From: Pseudonocardia sp.
Lineage (GTDB): Bacteria > Actinomycetota > Actinomycetes > Mycobacteriales > Pseudonocardiaceae
Direction of reading: 5' to 3'
Assembly: GCA_025869365.1 (NCBI GenBank)
Contig: JAOZVV010000187.1
Location: 1-64,000 of the forward strand
Length of the DNA stretch: 64,000 bases
The notes below the pieces were generated by a model that had not been told where the DNA came from, made no database searches, and was given only the letters and a program-made list of their open reading frames with translations. Below are positions 37,118 to 45,753 of the stretch, piece after piece (position 1 is the stretch's first letter; each line of letters opens with the position of its first letter). Position numbers and translations under genes: made by a program.

Positions 37118-37534
37118 GTGTTCGACTCCGTCGGCTGGGGCGAGATCCTGGTCCTGATCGTCGCGGGCCTGTTCATCCTCGGCCCCGAGAGACTGCCGAG
37201 CGCCGCGGCGTGGCTCGGCAAGACCGTCCGTCAGGTGCGGGAGTACGCCACCGGCGCCAAGGACCAGTTGCGCAACGAGCTCGGCCCGGAGTTCGACGAG
37301 CTGCGCAAACCGCTGGAGGACCTGCGCGGCCTGCGGAACTTCAACCCGCGCACCGCGGTCCGCCGCTCGCTCTTCGACGACGGGGACCTCTTCGGCGAGA
37401 AGCCCAACGGCCACGCCCCGGGCGCGAACGGCAGCGGCGGCGCCACCACCCCGCAGCAGCACCCGGCCGCACCCAAGGTGCCGGAGAAGCTCGCCCCGAA
37501 CGAGCGCCCCCCGATCGACCCCGACGCCACCTGA
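37118..37534 (+). CDS. tatB: Twin-arginine translocase subunit TatB
   Basis: 138 residues with the single N-terminal membrane helix [22 protein letters not shown], including the conserved Glu and the LGPERLP hinge, then an amphipathic helix and a disordered Pro/Ala tail. It is part of the Tat receptor complex for folded proteins. GTG start, 18 bp after htrA, so likely co-transcribed. Confidence 0.95.
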
Positions 37535-37564: not shown

Positions 37565-38992
37565 TCAGCCGAGCAGCGGCGGGCGGCGCCGGTGGTGCTC
37601 CGTCGCGGTCTCGAAGGCGTGGGCCGCGGCCAGGACCCTGCCGTCGGCATGCCGCGGGCCCACGATCTGCAGGCCCACCGGCAGCCCCGCCGAGGTGAAG
37701 CCGCAGGGGACGCTCGCGGCGGGCTGCTGGGTCATGTTGAACGGGTAGGTGAACGGCGTCCAGGACGTCCAGCGCGGTGACGCCGAGCCCGCCGGCACCT
37801 CCAGCCCGCCCGGGAACGCCGCGATCGGCAGCGTCGGGGTGAGCAGCAGGTCGTAGTCCGTGTGGAAGGCCCCCATCAGCGTGCCCAGCTCGTTGCGGAC
37901 GGCCATGGCACCGAGGTAGTCCAGCGCGCTGTACCGCGCGCCCTCCTCGGCGATCTCCACCAGCGACGGGTCCATCTGCGCCCGCGCCTCGGGCCCCAGG
38001 TGCTCGATCGTCTTCGCCGCGCCGGAGAACCAGAGCACGTGGAAGGGGTCGACCGGGTCCGCGAAGCCGGGGTCCGCGGGCTCGACCGTCGCGCCGAGGG
38101 CGGCGAAGACCTCCGCGGCCGCGGAGAACGCGGCCGCGACCTCGGGGTCCACGGTCGCGAAGCCCAGCGTCGGGCTGACGGCGATCCGCAGCCCCTCGAC
38201 GCCGTCGACGAGGGCGTCGGTGAACGTGCGGGCGTACTCGGGGAGCAGCCAGGGGTCCCGCGCGTCGAAGCCGGAGATCACGTCGAGCAGGAGCGCGGCG
38301 TCCGCGGCCGTGCGGGTCATCGGCCCGACGTGCGCGAGGGTGCCGAACGGGCTGCCCGGGTGGTGCGCGACGCGGCCGTAGGTCGGCTTGTGCGCGACCG
38401 TCCCGGTGAACGCGGCCGGGATGCGCACCGAGCCGCCGCCGTCCGTGCCGAGGGACAGCGCGCCCATCCCGAGCCCGACGGCCGCGGCGGACCCGCCGCT
38501 CGATCCGCCGGCGGTGAGCGAGGGGTTCCAGGGGTTGGTGGTGACCCCGGTCAGCGGCGAGTCCGTGACGCCCTTCCAGGCCAGCTCCGGCGTCGTCGTC
38601 TTGCCCAGGAAGACCGCACCGGCGGCGCGCGAGCGGGCGACGGGAGGGCCGTCGACCTCGGCGGGCACCTCCGGCGACGTGCGGGAGCCCCGGCGGGTGG
38701 GCCAGCCGGTCGTCAGCAGGATGTCCTTGATCGACATCGGCACGCCGTCCAGCGGCCCCCGCGGGGTGCCGGCCCGCCAGCGCGCCTCGGACGCCTTCGC
38801 CGCGGCCTGCGCGCCCTCGGCGTCGACCAGGTTGAACGCGGTGACGGTGTCGTTCAGCGCGGCGATCCGGTCCAGTGCGTCCCGGGTCGCCTCGACGGGG
38901 GAGAGGTCACCGGTCCGGTAGGCGGCGAGGAGCTCGGTGGCCGCGAGGTCGGCGGTGCTGTGGGTGGCGGGGGTGCTGGTGGGGGTGCTCAC
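37565..38992 (-). CDS. Amidase (amidase-signature family)
   Basis: 475 residues. The Ser-cisSer-Lys machinery is visible: Lys89 in PMSIKDILL, the Ser pair in TAGGSSGGSAA (164/165) and Ser188 in TDGGGSVRIPA. The family hydrolyses amides or amino-acid amides to acid plus ammonia. It lies 3 bp downstream of the hydroxyacid dehydrogenase, so the two are one operon inside the GntR-linked cluster. The substrate is unknown. It converges with tatB. Confidence 0.92.
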   Translation of the reverse strand: MSTPTSTPATHSTADLAATELLAAYRTGDLSPVEATRDALDRIAALNDTVTAFNLVDAEGAQAAAKASEARWRAGTPRGPLDGVPMSIKDILLTTGWPTRRGSRTSPEVPAEVDGPPVARSRAAGAVFLGKTTTPELAWKGVTDSPLTGVTTNPWNPSLTAGGSSGGSAAAVGLGMGALSLGTDGGGSVRIPAAFTGTVAHKPTYGRVAHHPGSPFGTLAHVGPMTRTAADAALLLDVISGFDARDPWLLPEYARTFTDALVDGVEGLRIAVSPTLGFATVDPEVAAAFSAAAEVFAALGATVEPADPGFADPVDPFHVLWFSGAAKTIEHLGPEARAQMDPSLVEIAEEGARYSALDYLGAMAVRNELGTLMGAFHTDYDLLLTPTLPIAAFPGGLEVPAGSASPRWTSWTPFTYPFNMTQQPAASVPCGFTSAGLPVGLQIVGPRHADGRVLAAAHAFETATEHHRRRPPLLG

Positions 38993-38995
38993 GGG

Positions 38996-39958
38996 TCAGC
39001 CCTTTCCGGAGACGTAGCCGAGGCTCTTGTCGACGACGTTGCGCAGCGGCTCGCCGGCGCGGTAGCGGGTGAGGTTGTCACAGAACAGGTCCAGCAGCAT
39101 GTCCCGCCAGCCCAGGACGTCCCCGGACATGTGCGGCGAGACGATCACGTTCGCCATGCCCCACAGCGGCGAGTCGTCCGGCAGCGGTTCGGTCTCGAAC
39201 ACGTCGAGCGCGGCACCGGCGATCCGGCCGCCGGTCAGCGCGTCGACGAGGTCCTGCTCGACCACGAGCCCGCCGCGCCCCACGTTGATCACCCGGGCGC
39301 TGTCCGGCAACGCGTCCAGCGCCGCTGTGTCCAGCAATCCGCGGGTGGCGTCCGTGAGCGGCGCGGCCAGGACGAGGTAGTCCGTGGCGGGCAACAGGCC
39401 CCCGAGGGTGTCGAAGGCGTGCACGCCGTCCGCGGCGCGCCGGCCGACCAGCTCGACCCGCAGCCCGACGGCCCGGAGCAGGTCCGCGATCGCGTGCCCG
39501 ATCGGCCCGCTGCCGACGACCGTGGCCCGCTTCCCGGCCACGCCCTCGGTCTCGCGGTGCCGCCACTGCGTGCGGGACTGCAGCGCGAGCGTCCCGGGCA
39601 GGTCCTTGGCGAAGGCGAGCACGCAGCCCAGCACGTACTCGGCCATGGGCCGGTCGAAGACGCCGCGCGAGTTCGTCAGGACGGCGTCCGAGGTGATCAG
39701 CTCCGGGAAGGTGACCTTGTCCACGCCCGCGCTGGCCGTGTGCACCCACCGGACGGAGTCCGCCGCGTGCCACGCGCCCGGGACGGCGGGGGAGAGGAAG
39801 TCCCAGGTGAGCAGGACGTCCGCGCCGGGCAGGGCGTCGGCCAGGGTGGCCCCGCTCGCGAAGCGGATCTCGGCCCCGTCCGCGCGTTCCTCGAGGCCGA
39901 TCGGAGGGGTGTCGCCCGTGAGCACGGCGATCACCGGTTGACCAGCAGAAACGGGCAC
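38996..39958 (-). CDS. D-2-hydroxyacid dehydrogenase
   Basis: 320 residues from the GTG at 39958, which has GAAAGGATC upstream. The Rossmann motif is VVGSGPIGHAIADLLRAVG; catalytic Arg lies in NVGRGGLV, Glu in FETEPLPDDSPLW, and His in VSPHMSGD. These enzymes interconvert 2-oxo acids and D-2-hydroxy acids with NAD(P). Its promoter region contains an ATTGTCAACAAT operator-like site. The frame is open beyond 39958 but runs over that site. Confidence 0.9.
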   Translation of the reverse strand: MPVSAGQPVIAVLTGDTPPIGLEERADGAEIRFASGATLADALPGADVLLTWDFLSPAVPGAWHAADSVRWVHTASAGVDKVTFPELITSDAVLTNSRGVFDRPMAEYVLGCVLAFAKDLPGTLALQSRTQWRHRETEGVAGKRATVVGSGPIGHAIADLLRAVGLRVELVGRRAADGVHAFDTLGGLLPATDYLVLAAPLTDATRGLLDTAALDALPDSARVINVGRGGLVVEQDLVDALTGGRIAGAALDVFETEPLPDDSPLWGMANVIVSPHMSGDVLGWRDMLLDLFCDNLTRYRAGEPLRNVVDKSLGYVSGKG

Positions 39959-40016
39959 GCCGAAGATCCTTTCGAAGGTGGGGGAGGCGATTGACACGCT
40001 AGGAAGCGCTCGTATG

Positions 40017-40028
40017 ATTGTCAACAAT
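40017..40028. promoter_or_regulatory. GntR operator-like palindrome 1
   Basis: ATTGTCAACAAT: half sites ATTGT and ACAAT around a 2-bp centre. It lies between the divergent hydroxyacid dehydrogenase (start 39958) and the DUF3830 gene (start about 40077). It matches the two sites at 41439 and 43080. FCD-type GntR proteins typically bind such short TTGT/ACAA palindromes. Confidence 0.75.
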
Positions 40029-40076
40029 CCGCGTGATCCCCACGCGTTCGGCCGGTTCCCGATCAGTAGTCACGAG

Positions 40077-40598
40077 GTGTGTGCGTTGCCGAAGTTCATC
40101 AGGATCTCCCTCGAGCGCCGTGGCGTCTCGTGCGTCGCCGAGCTGCTGGAGAAGGACGCCCCGCGGACCACCGCCGCGGTGTGGGAGGCCCTCGCCGACG
40201 GCCCGATCGGGGGTCCCGCGCAGCACGCCAAGTACGCCCGCAACGAGGTGTACTCGATCGTCCCGCGCTTCGGCCCGAAGATCGGCCAGGAGAACCCCAC
40301 GATCACCCCGATCCCGGGCGACGTGTGCTACTTCGACTTCCACGGCGGCATGCTCGACGCGTCCTTCAAGGAGGACCAGGACATCGACCAGGCCGAGGGC
40401 GGGATCGACCTGGCGATCTTCTACGGTCGTAACAACCTCCTGCTCAACGGGGACGTGGGCTGGGTGCCCGGAAACGTGTACGCGGCCATCGTGGAGAATC
40501 TCGACGCGATGGCGGAGGCGTGCCACGACGTGTGGCGCTCCGGCAGTGTGGGGGAGCGGCTCGTCTACGAGCGCGCTCCCGAGCGGTCGTCCGAGTAG
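40077..40598 (+). CDS. DUF3830 family protein
   Basis: 173 residues from the GTG at 40077; a TTG at 40086, with GAGG 8 nt upstream, is the alternative. The pattern IRISLERRGVSCVAELLEKDAPRTTAAVWEALADGPIGGPAQHAKYARNEVY and GDVCYFDFHGGMLD fits DUF3830, a cyclophilin-like-fold family without assigned activity. It is followed at 27 bp by a racemase-fold gene. I recall DUF3830 genes near amidases and maleate-isomerase-like genes elsewhere, which fits this cluster, but I could not check it. Confidence 0.8.
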   Translation: MCALPKFIRISLERRGVSCVAELLEKDAPRTTAAVWEALADGPIGGPAQHAKYARNEVYSIVPRFGPKIGQENPTITPIPGDVCYFDFHGGMLDASFKEDQDIDQAEGGIDLAIFYGRNNLLLNGDVGWVPGNVYAAIVENLDAMAEACHDVWRSGSVGERLVYERAPERSSE

Positions 40599-40625
40599 CC
40601 ACTCGGACCGTCGAGTGGAGTCCCC

Positions 40626-41408
40626 GTGCCCGCTGAGCTCTCCGTCGGACTCGTCGAGTCCGCGCCCGGTGAGAGTCCCGCCGATCCGGACGCGCCGGGC
40701 GTCGGGGTCGTCGCGCCGTTCGACTTCGCGCTGGACCGCGAGCTCTGGCGCTGGGTTCCCGAGGACGTCTCGCTCTACCTGACCCGGCTGCCGTTCTTCA
40801 CCACCCCGGTGACCGTGGAGATGGCCGTCGCGGTGGGGGACCGACGCGCGCTGCGCCGGGCCACCCGGGACGTGCTCACCCCGCGGCCGGGCACCGTCAC
40901 GTTCGCCTGCACGTCGGGCAGCTTCGTCAGTGGTGTCCAGGGCGAGTACGTGCTGCGTCGGACGATGCTCGAGGCCGGCGCGCCGACGGCCTCGACCACC
41001 AGCGGTGCGCTGATCGACGCGCTGCAGATCCTCGGCATCACCAAGCTCGCGATCGCGACGCCCTACATCGACGCCGTGACGCGCCGGCTGGTCGGCTACC
41101 TCGCGGACCAGGGTGTGGAGACCGTCGCCAGCGAGGGCCTCGGCCTGCTCGGCAACATCTGGCGGGTGAGCTACGACCAGGTCGTGGACATCGTCCGGGC
41201 GGTGGACCGCCCGGAGGCGGAGGCGCTGTTCATCAGCTGCACCAACCTGCCGACCTACGACGTCATCGAGCCGTTGGAGCAGGCGCTGGGCAAGCCGGTG
41301 CTGACGGCGAACCAGGTGACGATGTGGGCCTCGCTGCGGGCGATCGGGCGGCGCGCGGTCGGCGGCGGCCGCCTGCTGACCGCGCCCGAGCAGCTGTCCA
41401 TGACGTGA
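40626..41408 (+). CDS. Asp/Glu racemase-fold enzyme (maleate isomerase-like), two-Cys form
   Basis: 260 residues. Both catalytic Cys of the family are present: TFACTSGSFVSG (about residue 98) and LFISCTNLPTYDVI (about residue 205). With the C-terminal KPVLTANQVTMW this fits maleate cis-trans isomerase and arylmalonate-decarboxylase relatives. The likely chemistry is isomerisation, racemisation or decarboxylation of a small dicarboxylate or amino acid. GTG start. A GntR operator-like site follows before the paralogue. Confidence 0.85.
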   Translation: MPAELSVGLVESAPGESPADPDAPGVGVVAPFDFALDRELWRWVPEDVSLYLTRLPFFTTPVTVEMAVAVGDRRALRRATRDVLTPRPGTVTFACTSGSFVSGVQGEYVLRRTMLEAGAPTASTTSGALIDALQILGITKLAIATPYIDAVTRRLVGYLADQGVETVASEGLGLLGNIWRVSYDQVVDIVRAVDRPEAEALFISCTNLPTYDVIEPLEQALGKPVLTANQVTMWASLRAIGRRAVGGGRLLTAPEQLSMT

Positions 41409-41438
41409 GTCGGGTCCGGGGGCTCGACATGTTGTCCG

Positions 41439-41450
41439 GTTGTCGACAAT
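41439..41450. promoter_or_regulatory. GntR operator-like palindrome 2
   Basis: GTTGTCGACAAT, immediately before the possible ATG at 41452 of the second racemase-fold gene; an additional half site TTGTC lies at 41432-41436. Being almost on the start codon, a bound regulator would block initiation directly, or the mRNA has a very short leader. Confidence 0.75.
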
Positions 41451-41460
41451 CATGGTGGCC

Positions 41461-42198
41461 ATGAGCACCGGTACGCCTCCCACCGTCGGCATCCTCTACC
41501 CGGGCTACTCGGCCGAGGACGACTACCCGCGGGCCGAGCAGCTGCTCGGGGACGCACGTCTCCCGCTGGTGCACACCCTGATGCGCGAGGACGCCCACCG
41601 CGTCGACGCGCTGCTGGACGTCGGCGGGGACGAGATCCTCGCGGACGGCGCCCGGGCCGTCGCGGCGCAGGCGGGTCCCCTGGACTCGATCATCTGGGCC
41701 TGTACGTCGGGGAGTTTCGTCTTCGGCTGGGACGGGGCGACCGCCCAGGTCGAGGCCCTGCGCAAGGTCGCCGGGGTGCCGGCGTCGAGCACGTCGTTCG
41801 CCTTCGTCGACGCGTGCCGCCGGCTGGGGGTCACGAAGGTCGCCATCGGCGCGACGTATCCGGACGACGTCGCCGAGCACTTCGTCGAGTTCCTCGGCAA
41901 GGCCGGGATCACGGTCCTCTCGCTGTCCGCGAGGGGGATCATCACCGCGGCCGAGGTCGGGACGTTGCCGGGGGACCTCGTGCTGGACCTCGCCGCGGCG
42001 GCGGATCATCCGCAGGCGCACGCCGTCCTGCTGCCGGACACCGCGCTGCACACGGTGGACCTGCTCGACGCCCTCGACGCGCGGGTGGGCAAGCCGGTGC
42101 TGACCGCGAACCAGGTGAGCATCTGGCAGGGGCTGCGCCTCGCCGGACAGGACGACCCGCGGACGGGCTTCGGGGCGCTGTTCGCCGTCGGCCGGTGA
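41461..42198 (+). CDS. Asp/Glu racemase-fold enzyme, paralogue lacking the second Cys
   Basis: 245 residues from the ATG at 41461 (or 248 from 41452). The first catalytic Cys is kept (IIWACTSGSFVFGW), but the second motif reads VLLPDTALHTVD, with Asp where the two-Cys enzyme has Cys (SCTNLPT). The C-terminus KPVLTANQVSIWQGLRLAG matches the preceding enzyme. A one-Cys active site implies different chemistry from a two-base isomerase, or a non-catalytic partner. The GntR gene follows after 29 bp. Confidence 0.85.
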   Translation: MSTGTPPTVGILYPGYSAEDDYPRAEQLLGDARLPLVHTLMREDAHRVDALLDVGGDEILADGARAVAAQAGPLDSIIWACTSGSFVFGWDGATAQVEALRKVAGVPASSTSFAFVDACRRLGVTKVAIGATYPDDVAEHFVEFLGKAGITVLSLSARGIITAAEVGTLPGDLVLDLAAAADHPQAHAVLLPDTALHTVDLLDALDARVGKPVLTANQVSIWQGLRLAGQDDPRTGFGALFAVGR

Positions 42199-42227
42199 CG
42201 GGAACCGAAGGGGGGCTGAGGGGACAC

Positions 42228-42950
42228 ATGGAGCTCGACACGAGCGGGCTGGAACCCGTGGAGCGGCGGTCGACGGCGGCGATCGTCGCGGACCGCATCC
42301 GCACGGCGATCATGCGGGGGACGTTCCCGCCGGGGACCCAGCTCGGCGAGGTCGAGCTCGCGACCCGGCTCGGGGTGAGCCGGGGACCGCTGCGCGAGGC
42401 GATGCAGCGGCTCGTCGCCGAGGGTCTGCTGCGCAGCGAGCGGCATCGCGGGCTGTTCGTCCGGGACCTCGACGCCGCGGACGTGCGGGACGTCTACACC
42501 GCGCGGACCGCCGTCGAGCGTGCCGCGGCCCTGCTGCTCCTGGCCGAGGGGGACCGCAGCGTCGGCGTGGAGCGGCTGACGGCCGCGCTCGCGACCATGG
42601 AGGCCGCCGCGGCGGCGGGGGACGCCGTCGCGCTGGCGGACGCGGACCACGAGTTCCACGCCGAGCTCGTCGCGGCCTCCGGGAGCCCGCGGCTCTACCG
42701 GATGTCCCGCGCCCTGCTCGTCGAGACGCGGATGTGCCTGGCCGCGCTGCAGCAGACCGCCCCACCGGCGGCGGACCTGCTGGAGGAGCACCGCGCGCTG
42801 CGCGACGCCCTGCGGGACGGCGACTCCGCCCGGTTCGTGGGGATGCTGGAGGCGCACATGGCGGACGCGGTCGCGCGGATCCTGGACGTCGCGGCCGTCG
42901 CGGACCTGCCGGAGGGGGAGCCCGACCGGCCGGGGGCGGTCCCCGCCTGA
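42228..42950 (+). CDS. GntR-family regulator with FCD domain
   Basis: 240 residues. The winged HTH is ADRIRTAIMRGTFPPGTQLGEVELATRLGVSRGPLREAMQRLVAEGLL (residues about 15-65). The all-helical FCD domain follows, with candidate metal or effector ligands in DADHEFHAEL, EEHRAL and LEAHMADAV. FCD regulators usually sense small carboxylic acids. Three matching palindromes at 40017, 41439 and 43080 suggest it controls all transcripts of the cluster. Confidence 0.92.
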   Translation: MELDTSGLEPVERRSTAAIVADRIRTAIMRGTFPPGTQLGEVELATRLGVSRGPLREAMQRLVAEGLLRSERHRGLFVRDLDAADVRDVYTARTAVERAAALLLLAEGDRSVGVERLTAALATMEAAAAAGDAVALADADHEFHAELVAASGSPRLYRMSRALLVETRMCLAALQQTAPPAADLLEEHRALRDALRDGDSARFVGMLEAHMADAVARILDVAAVADLPEGEPDRPGAVPA

Positions 42951-42976
42951 CCGCTGCCGTCGCCGGGCGCCGCCGT

Positions 42977-43029
42977 GGCAGGACGGCCACCTTCCTGCCG
43001 GATCCTGGCGTGCAGGTGGCCTTCCTGCC
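42977..43029 (+). terminator. Inverted repeat after the GntR gene
   Basis: 16-bp arms 42977-42992 and 43014-43029 with one mismatch, 26 bp after the gntR stop. Likely terminator. Its core (CAGGA-x-GGCCACCTTCCTG) resembles the longer palindrome after the aminotransferase at 44398-44454. Confidence 0.75.
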
Positions 43030-43079
43030 CTTCGCGCGGGTCTTGCGAGCGGGCACCCCCCGTGGTTCCATCGACGCAG

Positions 43080-43091
43080 ATTGTCGACAAC
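43080..43091. promoter_or_regulatory. GntR operator-like palindrome 3
   Basis: ATTGTCGACAAC, with a second half site CGACAATT at 43093-43100, 41 bp upstream of the aminotransferase ATG. It is the mirror image of site 2 over the 12-bp core. Confidence 0.75.
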
Positions 43092-43131
43092 CCGACAATT
43101 GCTCGTCGAGACCGCTCAGGGAGCCCGTTCC

Positions 43132-44388
43132 ATGGCACAGCTGTCCCCGATGCTCACCCAGGCCACCCCGGTCCAGGCCGCGCGTGGCGAGGGCGTCTTC
43201 CTCTTCGACACCCAAGGACGCAAGTACCTGGACTTCACGGCGGGCATCGGCGTCACCAGCACCGGTCACTGCCACCCCAAGGTCGTCGCGGCAGCCCAGG
43301 AGCAGGTCGCGACCCTGATCCACGGCCAGTACACGACGGTCATGCACCAGCCGCTGCTCACGCTCACCGAGCGGCTCGGCGAGGTGCTCCCCGAGGGCAT
43401 CGACAGCCTGTTCTTCGCCAACTCCGGCAGCGAGGCCGTCGAGGCGTCGGTGCGGCTCGCCCGGCACGCCACCGGCCGGCCGCTGATCCTGGCCTTCGAC
43501 GGGGGCTTCCACGGCCGCACCATGGGCGCCGGGGCGCTGACCACCTCCGGCGCGAAGATCCGCTCCGGGATCGGCCCGATGATGGGCGGTACCGCGTTCG
43601 CGCCCTTCCCGTACGCCTACCGCTACGGCTGGACGGAGGAGCAAGCCACCGAGTTCGCGCTCAAGGAGCTCGACCGGCAGCTGATCACCACCGCTCCCGC
43701 GGCGGACGTCGCCGCGTTCCTCATCGAGCCGGTGCTGGGCGAGGGCGGCTACGTGCCCACCCCGCCGGCGTTCCTGAACGGCCTGCGCGAGCGCGCGGAC
43801 CGGCACGGCATCCTGCTGATCGCGGACGAGGTGCAGACCGGCTACGGCCGCACCGGGAAGTTCTGGGGCCACCAGCACGCGACCGCCGCCGTGCCGGACA
43901 TCCTGATCACCGCGAAGGGTCTGGCCAGCGGTTTCCCGCTCTCGGCGATCGCCGCGCCACGCGAGCTGATGGCCAAGGCCCGGCCGGGCTCGCAGGGCGG
44001 AACCTACGGCGGCAACGCCGTCGCCTGTGCCGCCGCGATCGCGACGCTGGACGTCGTGCAGGAGGAGGGCCTCGTCGAGAACGCCGCGACCCAGGGCCGC
44101 AGGCTCCTGGAGGCCGTCCGCGCCGCCTCGGCGGACGTCCCGGTCGTCGGTGACGTCCGTGGCCTCGGCCTGATGGTCGGGATCGAGTTCACCGCACCGG
44201 ACGGCACCCCGGACACCGCCACCGCCGTCAAGGCGCACGCGGCCGCGGCCGACCAGGGCCTGCTGCTGCTGACCTGCGGCCCGTTCGGCAACGTCGTCCG
44301 GATGATCCCGCCGCTGGTGGTGAACGCCGAGCAGATCGACGAGGGCGTCGCCCTCTGGACCAAGGTCCTGGGCAGCGTCGTCAACTGA
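43132..44388 (+). CDS. Class III aminotransferase (GabT-like)
   Basis: 418 residues. It has the PLP signature LLIADEVQTGYGRTGKFWGHQH followed by ILITAKGLASGFPLSA with the PLP-binding Lys. GSEAVEASVRLARHATGR and FDGGFHGRTMGA are the usual cofactor segments. The family transfers the omega-amino group of GABA, beta-alanine, ornithine or similar donors. GGGAG ribosome site. It has its own GntR operator-like site and is bracketed by two related palindromes. Confidence 0.9.
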   Translation: MAQLSPMLTQATPVQAARGEGVFLFDTQGRKYLDFTAGIGVTSTGHCHPKVVAAAQEQVATLIHGQYTTVMHQPLLTLTERLGEVLPEGIDSLFFANSGSEAVEASVRLARHATGRPLILAFDGGFHGRTMGAGALTTSGAKIRSGIGPMMGGTAFAPFPYAYRYGWTEEQATEFALKELDRQLITTAPAADVAAFLIEPVLGEGGYVPTPPAFLNGLRERADRHGILLIADEVQTGYGRTGKFWGHQHATAAVPDILITAKGLASGFPLSAIAAPRELMAKARPGSQGGTYGGNAVACAAAIATLDVVQEEGLVENAATQGRRLLEAVRAASADVPVVGDVRGLGLMVGIEFTAPDGTPDTATAVKAHAAAADQGLLLLTCGPFGNVVRMIPPLVVNAEQIDEGVALWTKVLGSVVN

Positions 44389-44397
44389 CTCCGCCGC

Positions 44398-44454
44398 GGT
44401 TCAGGAAAGCCACATTCAGGTAAGGAGATTTCCTGAATGTGGCTTTCCTGAACC
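44398..44454. terminator. Perfect 23-bp palindrome between convergent genes
   Basis: Arms 44398-44420 and 44432-44454 are exact reverse complements, with an 11-nt loop. Left arm begins GGTTCAGGAAAGCCAC. It lies 10 bp after the aminotransferase stop and 10 bp before the mrp stop, so it can terminate both transcripts. Confidence 0.88.
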
Positions 44455-44463
44455 TGGCAGGGG

Positions 44464-45618
44464 CTACTTGCGGACCGGGGAGATGTTGAGGCTCATCCCC
44501 GCCAGGCCCCGGCTCCGCACCGTGAGGGCGTCCGCGATCCCCTGCAGCGCCTGCGCCGCGGGGCTCTCCGGCTGCGCCCGGACGATCGGGGTGCCCGAGT
44601 CCCCGCACTCCCGCAGCCTCGTCTCCAGCGGGATCTGGCCCAGCAGCTTCACCGGGGCCCCGAGGATCTTGGTGAGCGAGTCCGCGACGGTCCGGCCGCC
44701 GCCGGAGCCGAAGATCTCGTTGCGCGAGCCGTCCGGCATCTCCATCCAGGACATGTTCTCGACGACGCCCGCGATCCGCTGACGGGTCTGCTGCGCGATC
44801 GAGCCCGCGCGCTCCGCGACCTCGGCCGCGGCCTGCTGCGGGGTGGTCACCACGATCAGCTCCGCGCCCGGGATCAGCTGCGCGGTGGAGATCGCGATGT
44901 CCCCGGTGCCGGGCGGCAGGTCCAGCAGCAGGACGTCCAGGTCTCCCCAGAACACGTCCGCGAGGAACTGCTGCAGCGCACGGTGCAGCATCGGCCCGCG
45001 CCACACGACCGGGGTGTTGTCCTGCACGAACATCCCGATGGAGATGACCTTCACGCCGTGCGCCTGCGGCGGCATGATCATGTTGTCGACCTTGGTGGGC
45101 CGGGTGCCCGCGCCGAGCATCCGCGGCACCGAGTGGCCGTAGATGTCCGCGTCCACGACGCCGACCTTGAGCCCCTTGGCGGCCATGGCCGCGGCGAGGT
45201 TGACCGTCACCGAGGACTTGCCGACGCCGCCCTTGCCGGACGCGATGCAGTAGACCCTGGTCAGCGACCCCGGCTGCGCGAACGGGATGACCGGTTCCTC
45301 GGAGTCCCCGCGCAGGCTCTTGCGCATCGCGGTGCGCTGCTCGTCGCTCATCACGTCGAGCTCCACGAGGACCTCCCGGACCCCGGGCACCTCCATGACC
45401 GCGTTCGTGACCCGCGAGGTGATGGTCTCCCGCATCGGGCAGCCGGCGACGGTGAGGTAGACCCCGACGGCCGCCACGCCGCCGGGCGACACGGCGACGC
45501 TCTTGACCATCCCGAGGTCCGTGATGGGCCGGTGGATCTCGGGGTCCTCGACCTTGGCGAGGGCGGCCCGGACGGCCTGCTCCATGGTCTCGGTGCTGGT
45601 GTTTCCCATAACGGACAT
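44464..45618 (-). CDS. mrp: Mrp/ApbC iron-sulfur cluster carrier P-loop protein
   Basis: 384 residues from the ATG at 45618 (GGAG 6 nt upstream). An N-terminal MIP18/DUF59 domain (ALAKVEDPEIHRPITDLGMV ... TVAGCPM) precedes the MinD-like ATPase with deviant Walker A SGKGGVGKSS, DADIYGHS and LLLDLPPGTGD. It delivers Fe-S clusters to apoproteins. The family's C-terminal CxxC is not evident here: the tail near ENMSWMEMPDG lacks it, as in several actinobacterial Mrp proteins. Divergent from a MarR gene; position matches Rv1229c. Confidence 0.92.
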   Translation of the reverse strand: MSVMGNTSTETMEQAVRAALAKVEDPEIHRPITDLGMVKSVAVSPGGVAAVGVYLTVAGCPMRETITSRVTNAVMEVPGVREVLVELDVMSDEQRTAMRKSLRGDSEEPVIPFAQPGSLTRVYCIASGKGGVGKSSVTVNLAAAMAAKGLKVGVVDADIYGHSVPRMLGAGTRPTKVDNMIMPPQAHGVKVISIGMFVQDNTPVVWRGPMLHRALQQFLADVFWGDLDVLLLDLPPGTGDIAISTAQLIPGAELIVVTTPQQAAAEVAERAGSIAQQTRQRIAGVVENMSWMEMPDGSRNEIFGSGGGRTVADSLTKILGAPVKLLGQIPLETRLRECGDSGTPIVRAQPESPAAQALQGIADALTVRSRGLAGMSLNISPVRK

Positions 45619-45753
45619 CTGGGTCTCCGCTGAACCTTCCGTGTGACGCGTACCCGGGAGCGCGGCGAGGTGGTGGTTCCGGCGCACCTGGTTGGCTCGT
45701 TCCATGCTACGTGCGCCCCCGCCGCCCCCCGCGCATCCGTAGCATCTGTGTAC

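Follow-up and report, generated by a model that had tools for sequence, protein, structure and literature searches.

The window analysed here is a 64,000-nucleotide stretch of DNA from Pseudonocardia sp. (contig JAOZVV010000187.1, positions 1 to 64,000; the genome, 90% complete, comprises 200 contigs with a total of 5.27 Mb). At 37565-44388 it holds a block of seven genes, flanked by tatB (37118-37534) and mrp (44464-45705), that most likely forms the core of a regulon for the use of ectoine or 5-hydroxyectoine, or both, found in Actinobacteria, predicted to be controlled by an FCD-type GntR protein and to work without the ring hydrolase EutD/DoeA. We put the probability that the regulon serves these ectoines at about three in four. 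The strands are divergent, with an amidase and a D-2-hydroxyacid dehydrogenase encoded on the minus strand, and a DUF3830 protein, two racemase-fold proteins (rac1 and rac2), the regulator and a class III aminotransferase on the plus strand:

37565..38992, minus strand: amidase (amidase-signature family, PRK06169 type); PF01425, E 8e-98; NF004815, 699.7 bits against a cut-off of 506
38996..39958, minus strand: D-2-hydroxyacid dehydrogenase; PF02826; nearest solved structure 5mh5
40016..40029, no strand: operator 1, GATTGTCAACAATC, in the divergent promoter region
40077..40598, plus strand: DUF3830 protein, cyclophilin-like fold; PF12903, 191.9 bits against a cut-off of 26
40626..41408, plus strand: rac1, arylmalonate-decarboxylase/maleate-isomerase-fold protein; PF17645; Cys 95 and 205
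41438..41451, no strand: operator 2, GGTTGTCGACAATC, at the rac2 start
41452..42198, plus strand: rac2, paralogue of rac1; PF17645; Cys 84 kept, Asp196 at the second Cys position
42228..42950, plus strand: FCD-type GntR regulator; PF00392 and PF07729
43079..43092, no strand: operator 3, GATTGTCGACAACC, before the aminotransferase
43132..44388, plus strand: class III omega-aminotransferase, GABA (4-aminobutyrate)-transaminase type; PF00202

An initial annotation had placed seven genes of these families between tatB and mrp, and all of the open reading frames and profiles were recovered. Both racemase-fold proteins exceeded the PF17645 gathering score of 25.9 bits (95.5 and 84 bits). Aligned to Escherichia coli GabT (1sf2), the aminotransferase keeps the Arg/Glu/Arg positions, which we take to bind substrate, and the Lys that presumably carries pyridoxal phosphate (PLP). 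In our own reading, likely starts differ from the longest open reading frames for the dehydrogenase (GTG 39958), DUF3830 (GTG 40077 or TTG 40086), rac2 (ATG 41452 or 41461) and the aminotransferase (ATG 43132).

DUF3830 relatives numbered 462 in named genomes, and the best 80 of these were used for counting; several of their pieces stop at contig ends. Counting what the pieces hold, 56 of the 80 loci had all seven genes, 17 had six, 6 had five and 1 had four, so the gene set is not a chance association; co-occurrence was the check that the initial annotation had proposed. Genera among the 80 include Pseudonocardia, Actinomadura, Nocardiopsis, Saccharopolyspora and Glycomyces, mostly with the same divergent order. 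The nearest named DUF3830 relatives are from Pseudonocardia (92-95% identical), and in more distant genomes the set is kept with its order reshuffled.

The palindrome TTGTCRACAA lies in the block at 40018, 41440 and 43081. The whole genome holds four such sites, three of them inside the block, compared with a single site for the reversed control pattern. It was present in 80/80 related loci (1.48 Mb), where 183 of 184 sites fell within the block ± 400 bases (reversed control, 1). An operator lay at most 350 nucleotides (nt) upstream of the DUF3830 match in 78/80 loci, of the aminotransferase in 60/64 and of rac2 in 30/79, and the 14-mer GATTGTCRACAATC was found in 78 of 120 genomes of the window's family, its reversed control in one. 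The seven genes are predicted to be a co-regulated regulon, and the FCD-GntR protein is presumed from operator conservation to bind these sites. The earlier view, of a catabolic cluster under GntR control that was inserted between tatB and mrp, is supported by the three operators and by the flanking genes in ten other genomes of the family. Because tatB directly adjoins mrp in six of them (L252-L256, L259), the block appears to have been inserted in the Pseudonocardia lineage; in the remaining four, including G104 of the same genus, the adjacency was not visible within a short piece. Among the 80 loci, none outside Pseudonocardia and one metagenome-assembled genome named Pseudonocardiales (L069) has the block beside tatB or mrp.

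Satellite operators precede the aminotransferase gene where it sits apart from the block (L165-L167, L171, L179) and also mark a Glu/Leu/Val-dehydrogenase-like gene (L170, L172, L173, L177); the genes around the latter sites, and those in L174 and L175, were read from open reading frame calling, which is error-prone in GC-rich DNA, and our other conclusions rest on homology runs. One genome counted as DUF3830-negative carries gntR, aldehyde dehydrogenase (ALDH) and aminotransferase genes with operators (L176). Since the same palindrome also precedes unrelated genes that belong to different catabolic sets and lie close to further GntR genes (L174, L175), it is probably common to several FCD regulators. 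The fourth palindrome of the window genome lies at L260:6421-6430 (contig C176), 47 nt before ectA, which is followed by ectB and ectC (ectC assigned by PF06339, ectA and ectB by our reading of sequence and gene order).

The link to ectoine comes from transporters. Seven loci, spread over three families of Actinobacteria, have core block genes beside an EhuABCD-type transporter, and in the five loci scored against NCBIfam (L220, L240, L242, L187, L246) all four subunits exceeded the curated EhuA/B/C/D cut-offs. In L220 the scores against cut-offs were 264.5/190.9 for EhuB, 258.1/196.95 for EhuC, 259.9/205.2 for EhuD and 374/345.4 for EhuA. Four of the five combine EhuABCD with core block genes including DUF3830, namely L220, the two loci L240 and L242 from the window's family, and L187 from a third one; L189 and L190 share the L187 gene order, by similarity only. 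The L220 order runs ATP-binding cassette (ABC) transporter, RidA-like gene (our own recognition; NCBIfam gave no match), rac1, rac2, amidase, DUF3830, gntR, ArgE/DapE-type deacylase, PLP aminotransferase, DoeA-like M24 hydrolase, D-2-hydroxyacid dehydrogenase, aminotransferase and YdiJ-like gene. In L246, from the same genus, EhuABCD adjoins rac1, rac2, gntR and the end of an amidase; an operator lies a short way upstream of the ehuB frame, and DUF3830 is on the same contig at a distance of about 90 kb.

Co-occurrence pointed the same way. Within the window's family, with each genus represented by one genome, EhuB exceeded its cut-off in 25 of the 30 genomes that have DUF3830 (not in G005, G013, G026, G040 and G046) and in 2 of the 16 that lack it (G006, G027; Fisher p 4e-6, not corrected for relatedness). 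Ectoine synthase was found in 30/30 positives and 8/16 negatives, and among the genomes with ectoine synthase EhuB was present in 25/30 and 2/8, respectively. The window genome has all of EhuA-D over cut-offs on contig C156, unlinked to the block, and also ectABC. The statement in the initial annotation that no transporter is present thus holds for the window but not beyond it, given this EhuABCD and an AEC-type transporter gene after gntR in 17 related loci (16 genomes, all Pseudonocardia). The substrate that it called 'unknown' is most likely ectoine or hydroxyectoine, neither of which was among the compounds that it listed.

Matches to the known ring hydrolase were few in the window's family. 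At E<=1e-30, EutD/DoeA (TIGR02993) had no match in the window genome (90% complete); in 80 genomes, 0 matches were over the cut-off and 18 below it. Within that family, DoeA-like matches at E<=1e-30 occurred in 5/30 positives (only G018 above 300 bits) and 1/16 negatives, all of them short of the curated cut-off; in a second family, f4, they occurred in 8/15 DUF3830-positives and 3/15 negatives. In five of those eight f4 positives (G207, G600, G509, G554, G598) the DoeA-like gene lies at most 15 kb from DUF3830. L185 and L220, of one genus, add three genes next to that of the D-2-hydroxyacid dehydrogenase: one for a DoeA-like hydrolase 44% identical to Ensifer EutD, one for a PLP aminotransferase and one for an ArgE/DapE-type deacylase. 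Most carriers sampled in the window's family thus possess the transporter but lack an EutD-type hydrolase, which would leave ring opening to block proteins or to something not found.

Within the block, DUF3830 and the two racemase-fold proteins are the favoured candidates, the amidase being a further one, and we infer their roles tentatively, holding it somewhat less than evenly probable that DUF3830 opens the ring with rac1 and rac2. DUF3830 is proposed to act in a ring-opening or ring-imine step. It is a single-domain protein with 21-22% identity to the Pictet-Spenglerases McbB and KslB, the profile match reaching only E 0.22 (McbB), and may be a related cyclophilin-fold catalyst that acts on a cyclic amidine or imine. 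Both active-site Cys of rac1 were present in 95/95 sequences, at positions presumably used by maleate isomerases, and rac2 had Cys then Asp in 99/99. The best NCBIfam model for both was EutA (TIGR02990; 111.5 and 97.6 bits, both below the curated cut-off of 318), and the two may form a hetero-oligomeric EutA-fold pair, one Cys-Cys and the other Cys-Asp. The VIA-align list held no KipI/PxpB-type protein, which excludes nothing, and the name DUF3830 was found in no paper of the literature searched.

Homologues of these proteins also occurred in other settings. On a Sinorhizobium plasmid (L205:1-9714), the nearest rac1 homologue (42%) lies beside class III aminotransferase, ALDH, amidohydrolase and ehu genes; plasmid searches otherwise yielded distant homologues only, with mostly uninformative annotated contexts. 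A Mesorhizobium plasmid (L132:9261-11881) presents a different setting of DUF3830, with GntR, a TIGR04076 protein and an aldo/keto reductase beside a branched-chain-type ABC transporter. One actinobacterial genome has three tandem DUF3830-like stretches of a more divergent, lower-scoring kind (L201; G376:C23).

Companion enzymes in relatives indicate what may follow ring opening. Among the 129 counted loci with DUF3830 and rac2, 45 (44/124 without five duplicate genomes) have a succinate-semialdehyde-type ALDH gene divergent to the aminotransferase. Beside it stands either a tartrate/D-malate-type dehydrogenase (TTC; TIGR02089, 514.4 bits in L182 and 515.9 in L181, cut-off 470.4) or a protein resembling D-2-hydroxyglutarate dehydrogenase (matched by the YdiJ model, but below its cut-off), with compact clusters in L223, L224 and L232. 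TTC or the YdiJ-like protein occurs in 14/129 loci, all 14 of which also carry the D-2-hydroxyacid dehydrogenase. The Glu/Leu/Val-dehydrogenase-like gene occurs in seven, of which four (L234-L237) lack the D-2-hydroxyacid dehydrogenase and three carry both; neither TTC nor YdiJ reached threshold in any of the seven, L194 having a YdiJ fragment cut by the piece end. This enzyme (L172:4836-6026 and orthologues) has Thr, in the motif ATGGTRM, at the usual position of the Lys that we take to be the glutamate-specificity residue of Glu/Leu/Phe/Val dehydrogenases. The Thr for Lys and the alternation with the D-2-hydroxyacid dehydrogenase, which four loci lack, suggest that the enzyme serves as a pathway step rather than in glutamate recycling, though three of the seven loci have both dehydrogenases. 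The window genome has orthologues of the ALDH (71% identity, contig C160) and of the Glu/Leu/Val-dehydrogenase-like enzyme (69%). The block is, on this comparison, not the whole pathway, to which ALDH, a D-2-hydroxyacid-oxidising enzyme or amino-acid dehydrogenase, and a transporter appear to belong in relatives.

From what can be seen in the sequences, namely the gene set, the operators, the transporter linkage and the relatives' companion enzymes, we infer the solute (ectoine or hydroxyectoine), each reaction and the order of the steps. EhuABCD, on another contig in the window genome, would take up the solute, and DUF3830, rac1 and rac2 would open or isomerise its tetrahydropyrimidine ring; with hydroxyectoine, the C4 proton and C5 hydroxyl would be lost and the ring imine or enamine then hydrolysed. 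The amidase would remove the acetyl group from the acetylated ring-opening product to give a 4-amino-2-oxobutyrate-type acid, and the D-2-hydroxyacid dehydrogenase, proposed to act on a 4-amino(acetamido)-2-oxobutyrate-type 2-oxo acid, would reduce this to D-4-amino-2-hydroxybutyrate. In some lineages the Glu/Leu/Val-dehydrogenase-like enzyme would aminate it instead, giving diaminobutyrate and later aspartate. The GABA-type aminotransferase would then remove the 4-amino group and a succinate-semialdehyde-type dehydrogenase would oxidise the aldehyde, yielding D-malate (or L-aspartate); D-malate would be oxidised by the tartrate/D-malate-type or D-2-hydroxyglutarate-type dehydrogenase seen in relatives. 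We draw the route through D-2-hydroxy acids to D-malate because relatives add the semialdehyde dehydrogenase and one of these two enzymes, and the D-2-hydroxyacid dehydrogenase, aminotransferase, semialdehyde dehydrogenase and D-malate-oxidising enzyme suggest a stereochemically consistent line to that product. As written, the D-malate route is in our judgement evenly balanced between right and wrong. The guesses of amide hydrolysis, omega-transamination and 2-oxo acid reduction in the initial annotation fit it, and its interpretation as a whole is partly supported.

Several observations weigh against an ectoine regulon. EhuB over the cut-off is missing from 5 of the 30 DUF3830-positives in the window's family, does not distinguish positives (5/15) from negatives (3/15) in family f4, and was found in 1 of 4 further positives. 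With scores of about 415, the relatives' DoeA-like proteins fall short of the curated cut-off of 613. In the window genome itself, the EhuABCD, ALDH and Glu/Leu/Val-dehydrogenase-like genes lie on other contigs, without the operator, and in other lineages AEC, MHS, APC or BCCT transporters lie in or near the block. The pieces from three Pseudonocardia (L052, L061, L064) hold neither D-2-hydroxyacid dehydrogenase nor aminotransferase. Because a site with at most one mismatch lies upstream of ectA in 0/20 other genera, the ectA-upstream palindrome may be lineage-specific or due to chance.

The closest rival is that the block handles 5-hydroxyectoine only, or merely converts it to ectoine in place of EutABC, with the rest of the pathway elsewhere. 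EutA is the best NCBIfam model for rac1 and rac2, though far below its cut-off, and three loci (L226-L228) hold, of the set, just DUF3830, rac1 and rac2 in their pieces; a role of EutA with hydroxyectoine is proposed in the part of PMC5924519 available to us. However, the block's own aminotransferase, with the ALDH and D-2-hydroxyacid-oxidising enzymes of relatives, implies a regulon that reaches central metabolism, and we regard this narrower function as unlikely, if the most credible of the alternatives.

Substrates other than ectoines fare worse. An Ehu-like transporter could serve another small nitrogen compound, such as a maleamate- or maleate-type acid, a lactam, or a GABA- or beta-alanine-like amide, as the rac1 Cys pair (at the positions used by maleate isomerases), the GABA-type aminotransferase with a succinate-semialdehyde-dehydrogenase-like ALDH, and the AEC, MHS and APC transporters of some loci would allow. 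We consider this improbable: the Ehu subunits of five loci, drawn from three families, exceed the cut-offs of the ectoine equivalogs, and ectoine synthase occurs in 30/30 positives. Pantothenate catabolism appears more improbable still, to the point of being barely credible. The amidase would there yield pantoate and beta-alanine, the latter handled by the omega-aminotransferase and ALDH, and an ALDH and TTC-type enzyme would take aldopantoate via 3,3-dimethylmalate to 2-oxoisovalerate; the block has an amidase and a GABA-type aminotransferase, and ALDH adjoins a TTC-type dehydrogenase in L181, L182 and L188. This route leaves the EhuABCD linkage, the DoeA-like hydrolase, the two racemase-fold genes and DUF3830 all unexplained, and no paper of the literature searched contained even two of the three enzyme names looked for. 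As substrates, pantothenate, maleamate or maleate (nicotinate-like) and beta-alanine or GABA amides were rejected, none accounting for the Ehu linkage, which lysine-type 5-aminovaleramide and asparagine-type 2-hydroxysuccinamate likewise leave unexplained.

The proteobacterial system for ectoine and hydroxyectoine comprises EhuABCD or UehABC, EutABCDE/DoeAB, Ssd, Atf and EnuR. The block resembles it in ectoine transporter linkage, an EutA-fold protein, a class III aminotransferase with a succinate-semialdehyde-dehydrogenase-like enzyme, and control by the GntR superfamily. It differs in that the window genome has no EutD match, and in having an amidase, DUF3830, a second EutA-fold protein, a D-2-hydroxyacid dehydrogenase and an FCD-type GntR regulator rather than the MocR-type EnuR; D-malate is the proposed product here, aspartate there. 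At the thresholds applied, none of the 129 counted loci had a homologue of EutB, EutC or EutE (EutE/DoeB was not searched in the whole window genome). Compared with the arylmalonate decarboxylase/maleate isomerase family, the rac proteins share fold and Cys positions but are two adjacent paralogues, one Cys-Asp instead of Cys-Cys. In the parts of the sources available to us, a doeBDAC cluster is mentioned in Tsukamurella (PMC7192451), and putative Gram-positive ectoine clusters, termed tentative, were found through EutD and EutB (PMC13188858, 2026). The latter are likewise from Actinomycetota, with BCCT, MFS or EhuABCD transporters and an amidohydrolase and an aldehyde dehydrogenase; in contrast to the block, no amidase is named for them, the word being absent from that paper's main text.

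The block most likely belongs with compatible-solute catabolism in many Actinobacteria, with a family of unknown function, DUF3830, at its centre. That the (hydroxy)ectoine ring is opened independently of EutD by a new enzyme trio, DUF3830 with rac1 and rac2, which feeds a D-2-hydroxy-acid route to D-malate across the Actinobacteria, is a more venturesome proposal, which we consider somewhat likelier to fail than to hold. The ectoine regulon, if rightly read, would be a so far undescribed, EutD-independent route by which soil actinobacteria eat ectoine or hydroxyectoine, salt-protecting molecules made by themselves and their neighbours, and would provide a function for the DUF3830 family and a testable operator. 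It would also help with the unsolved question of what EutA-fold enzymes do when hydroxyectoine is used, the 'precise enzymatic activities' of the EutABC steps being given as 'unknown' in the part of PMC8739950 available to us.

Imperfect inverted repeats lie before (42979-43027) and after (44402-44450) the aminotransferase gene. Both are built from one TGAAGGTGGCCTTCCTG-like word (4 matches, 0.07 expected) and may be terminators or a small repeated element.

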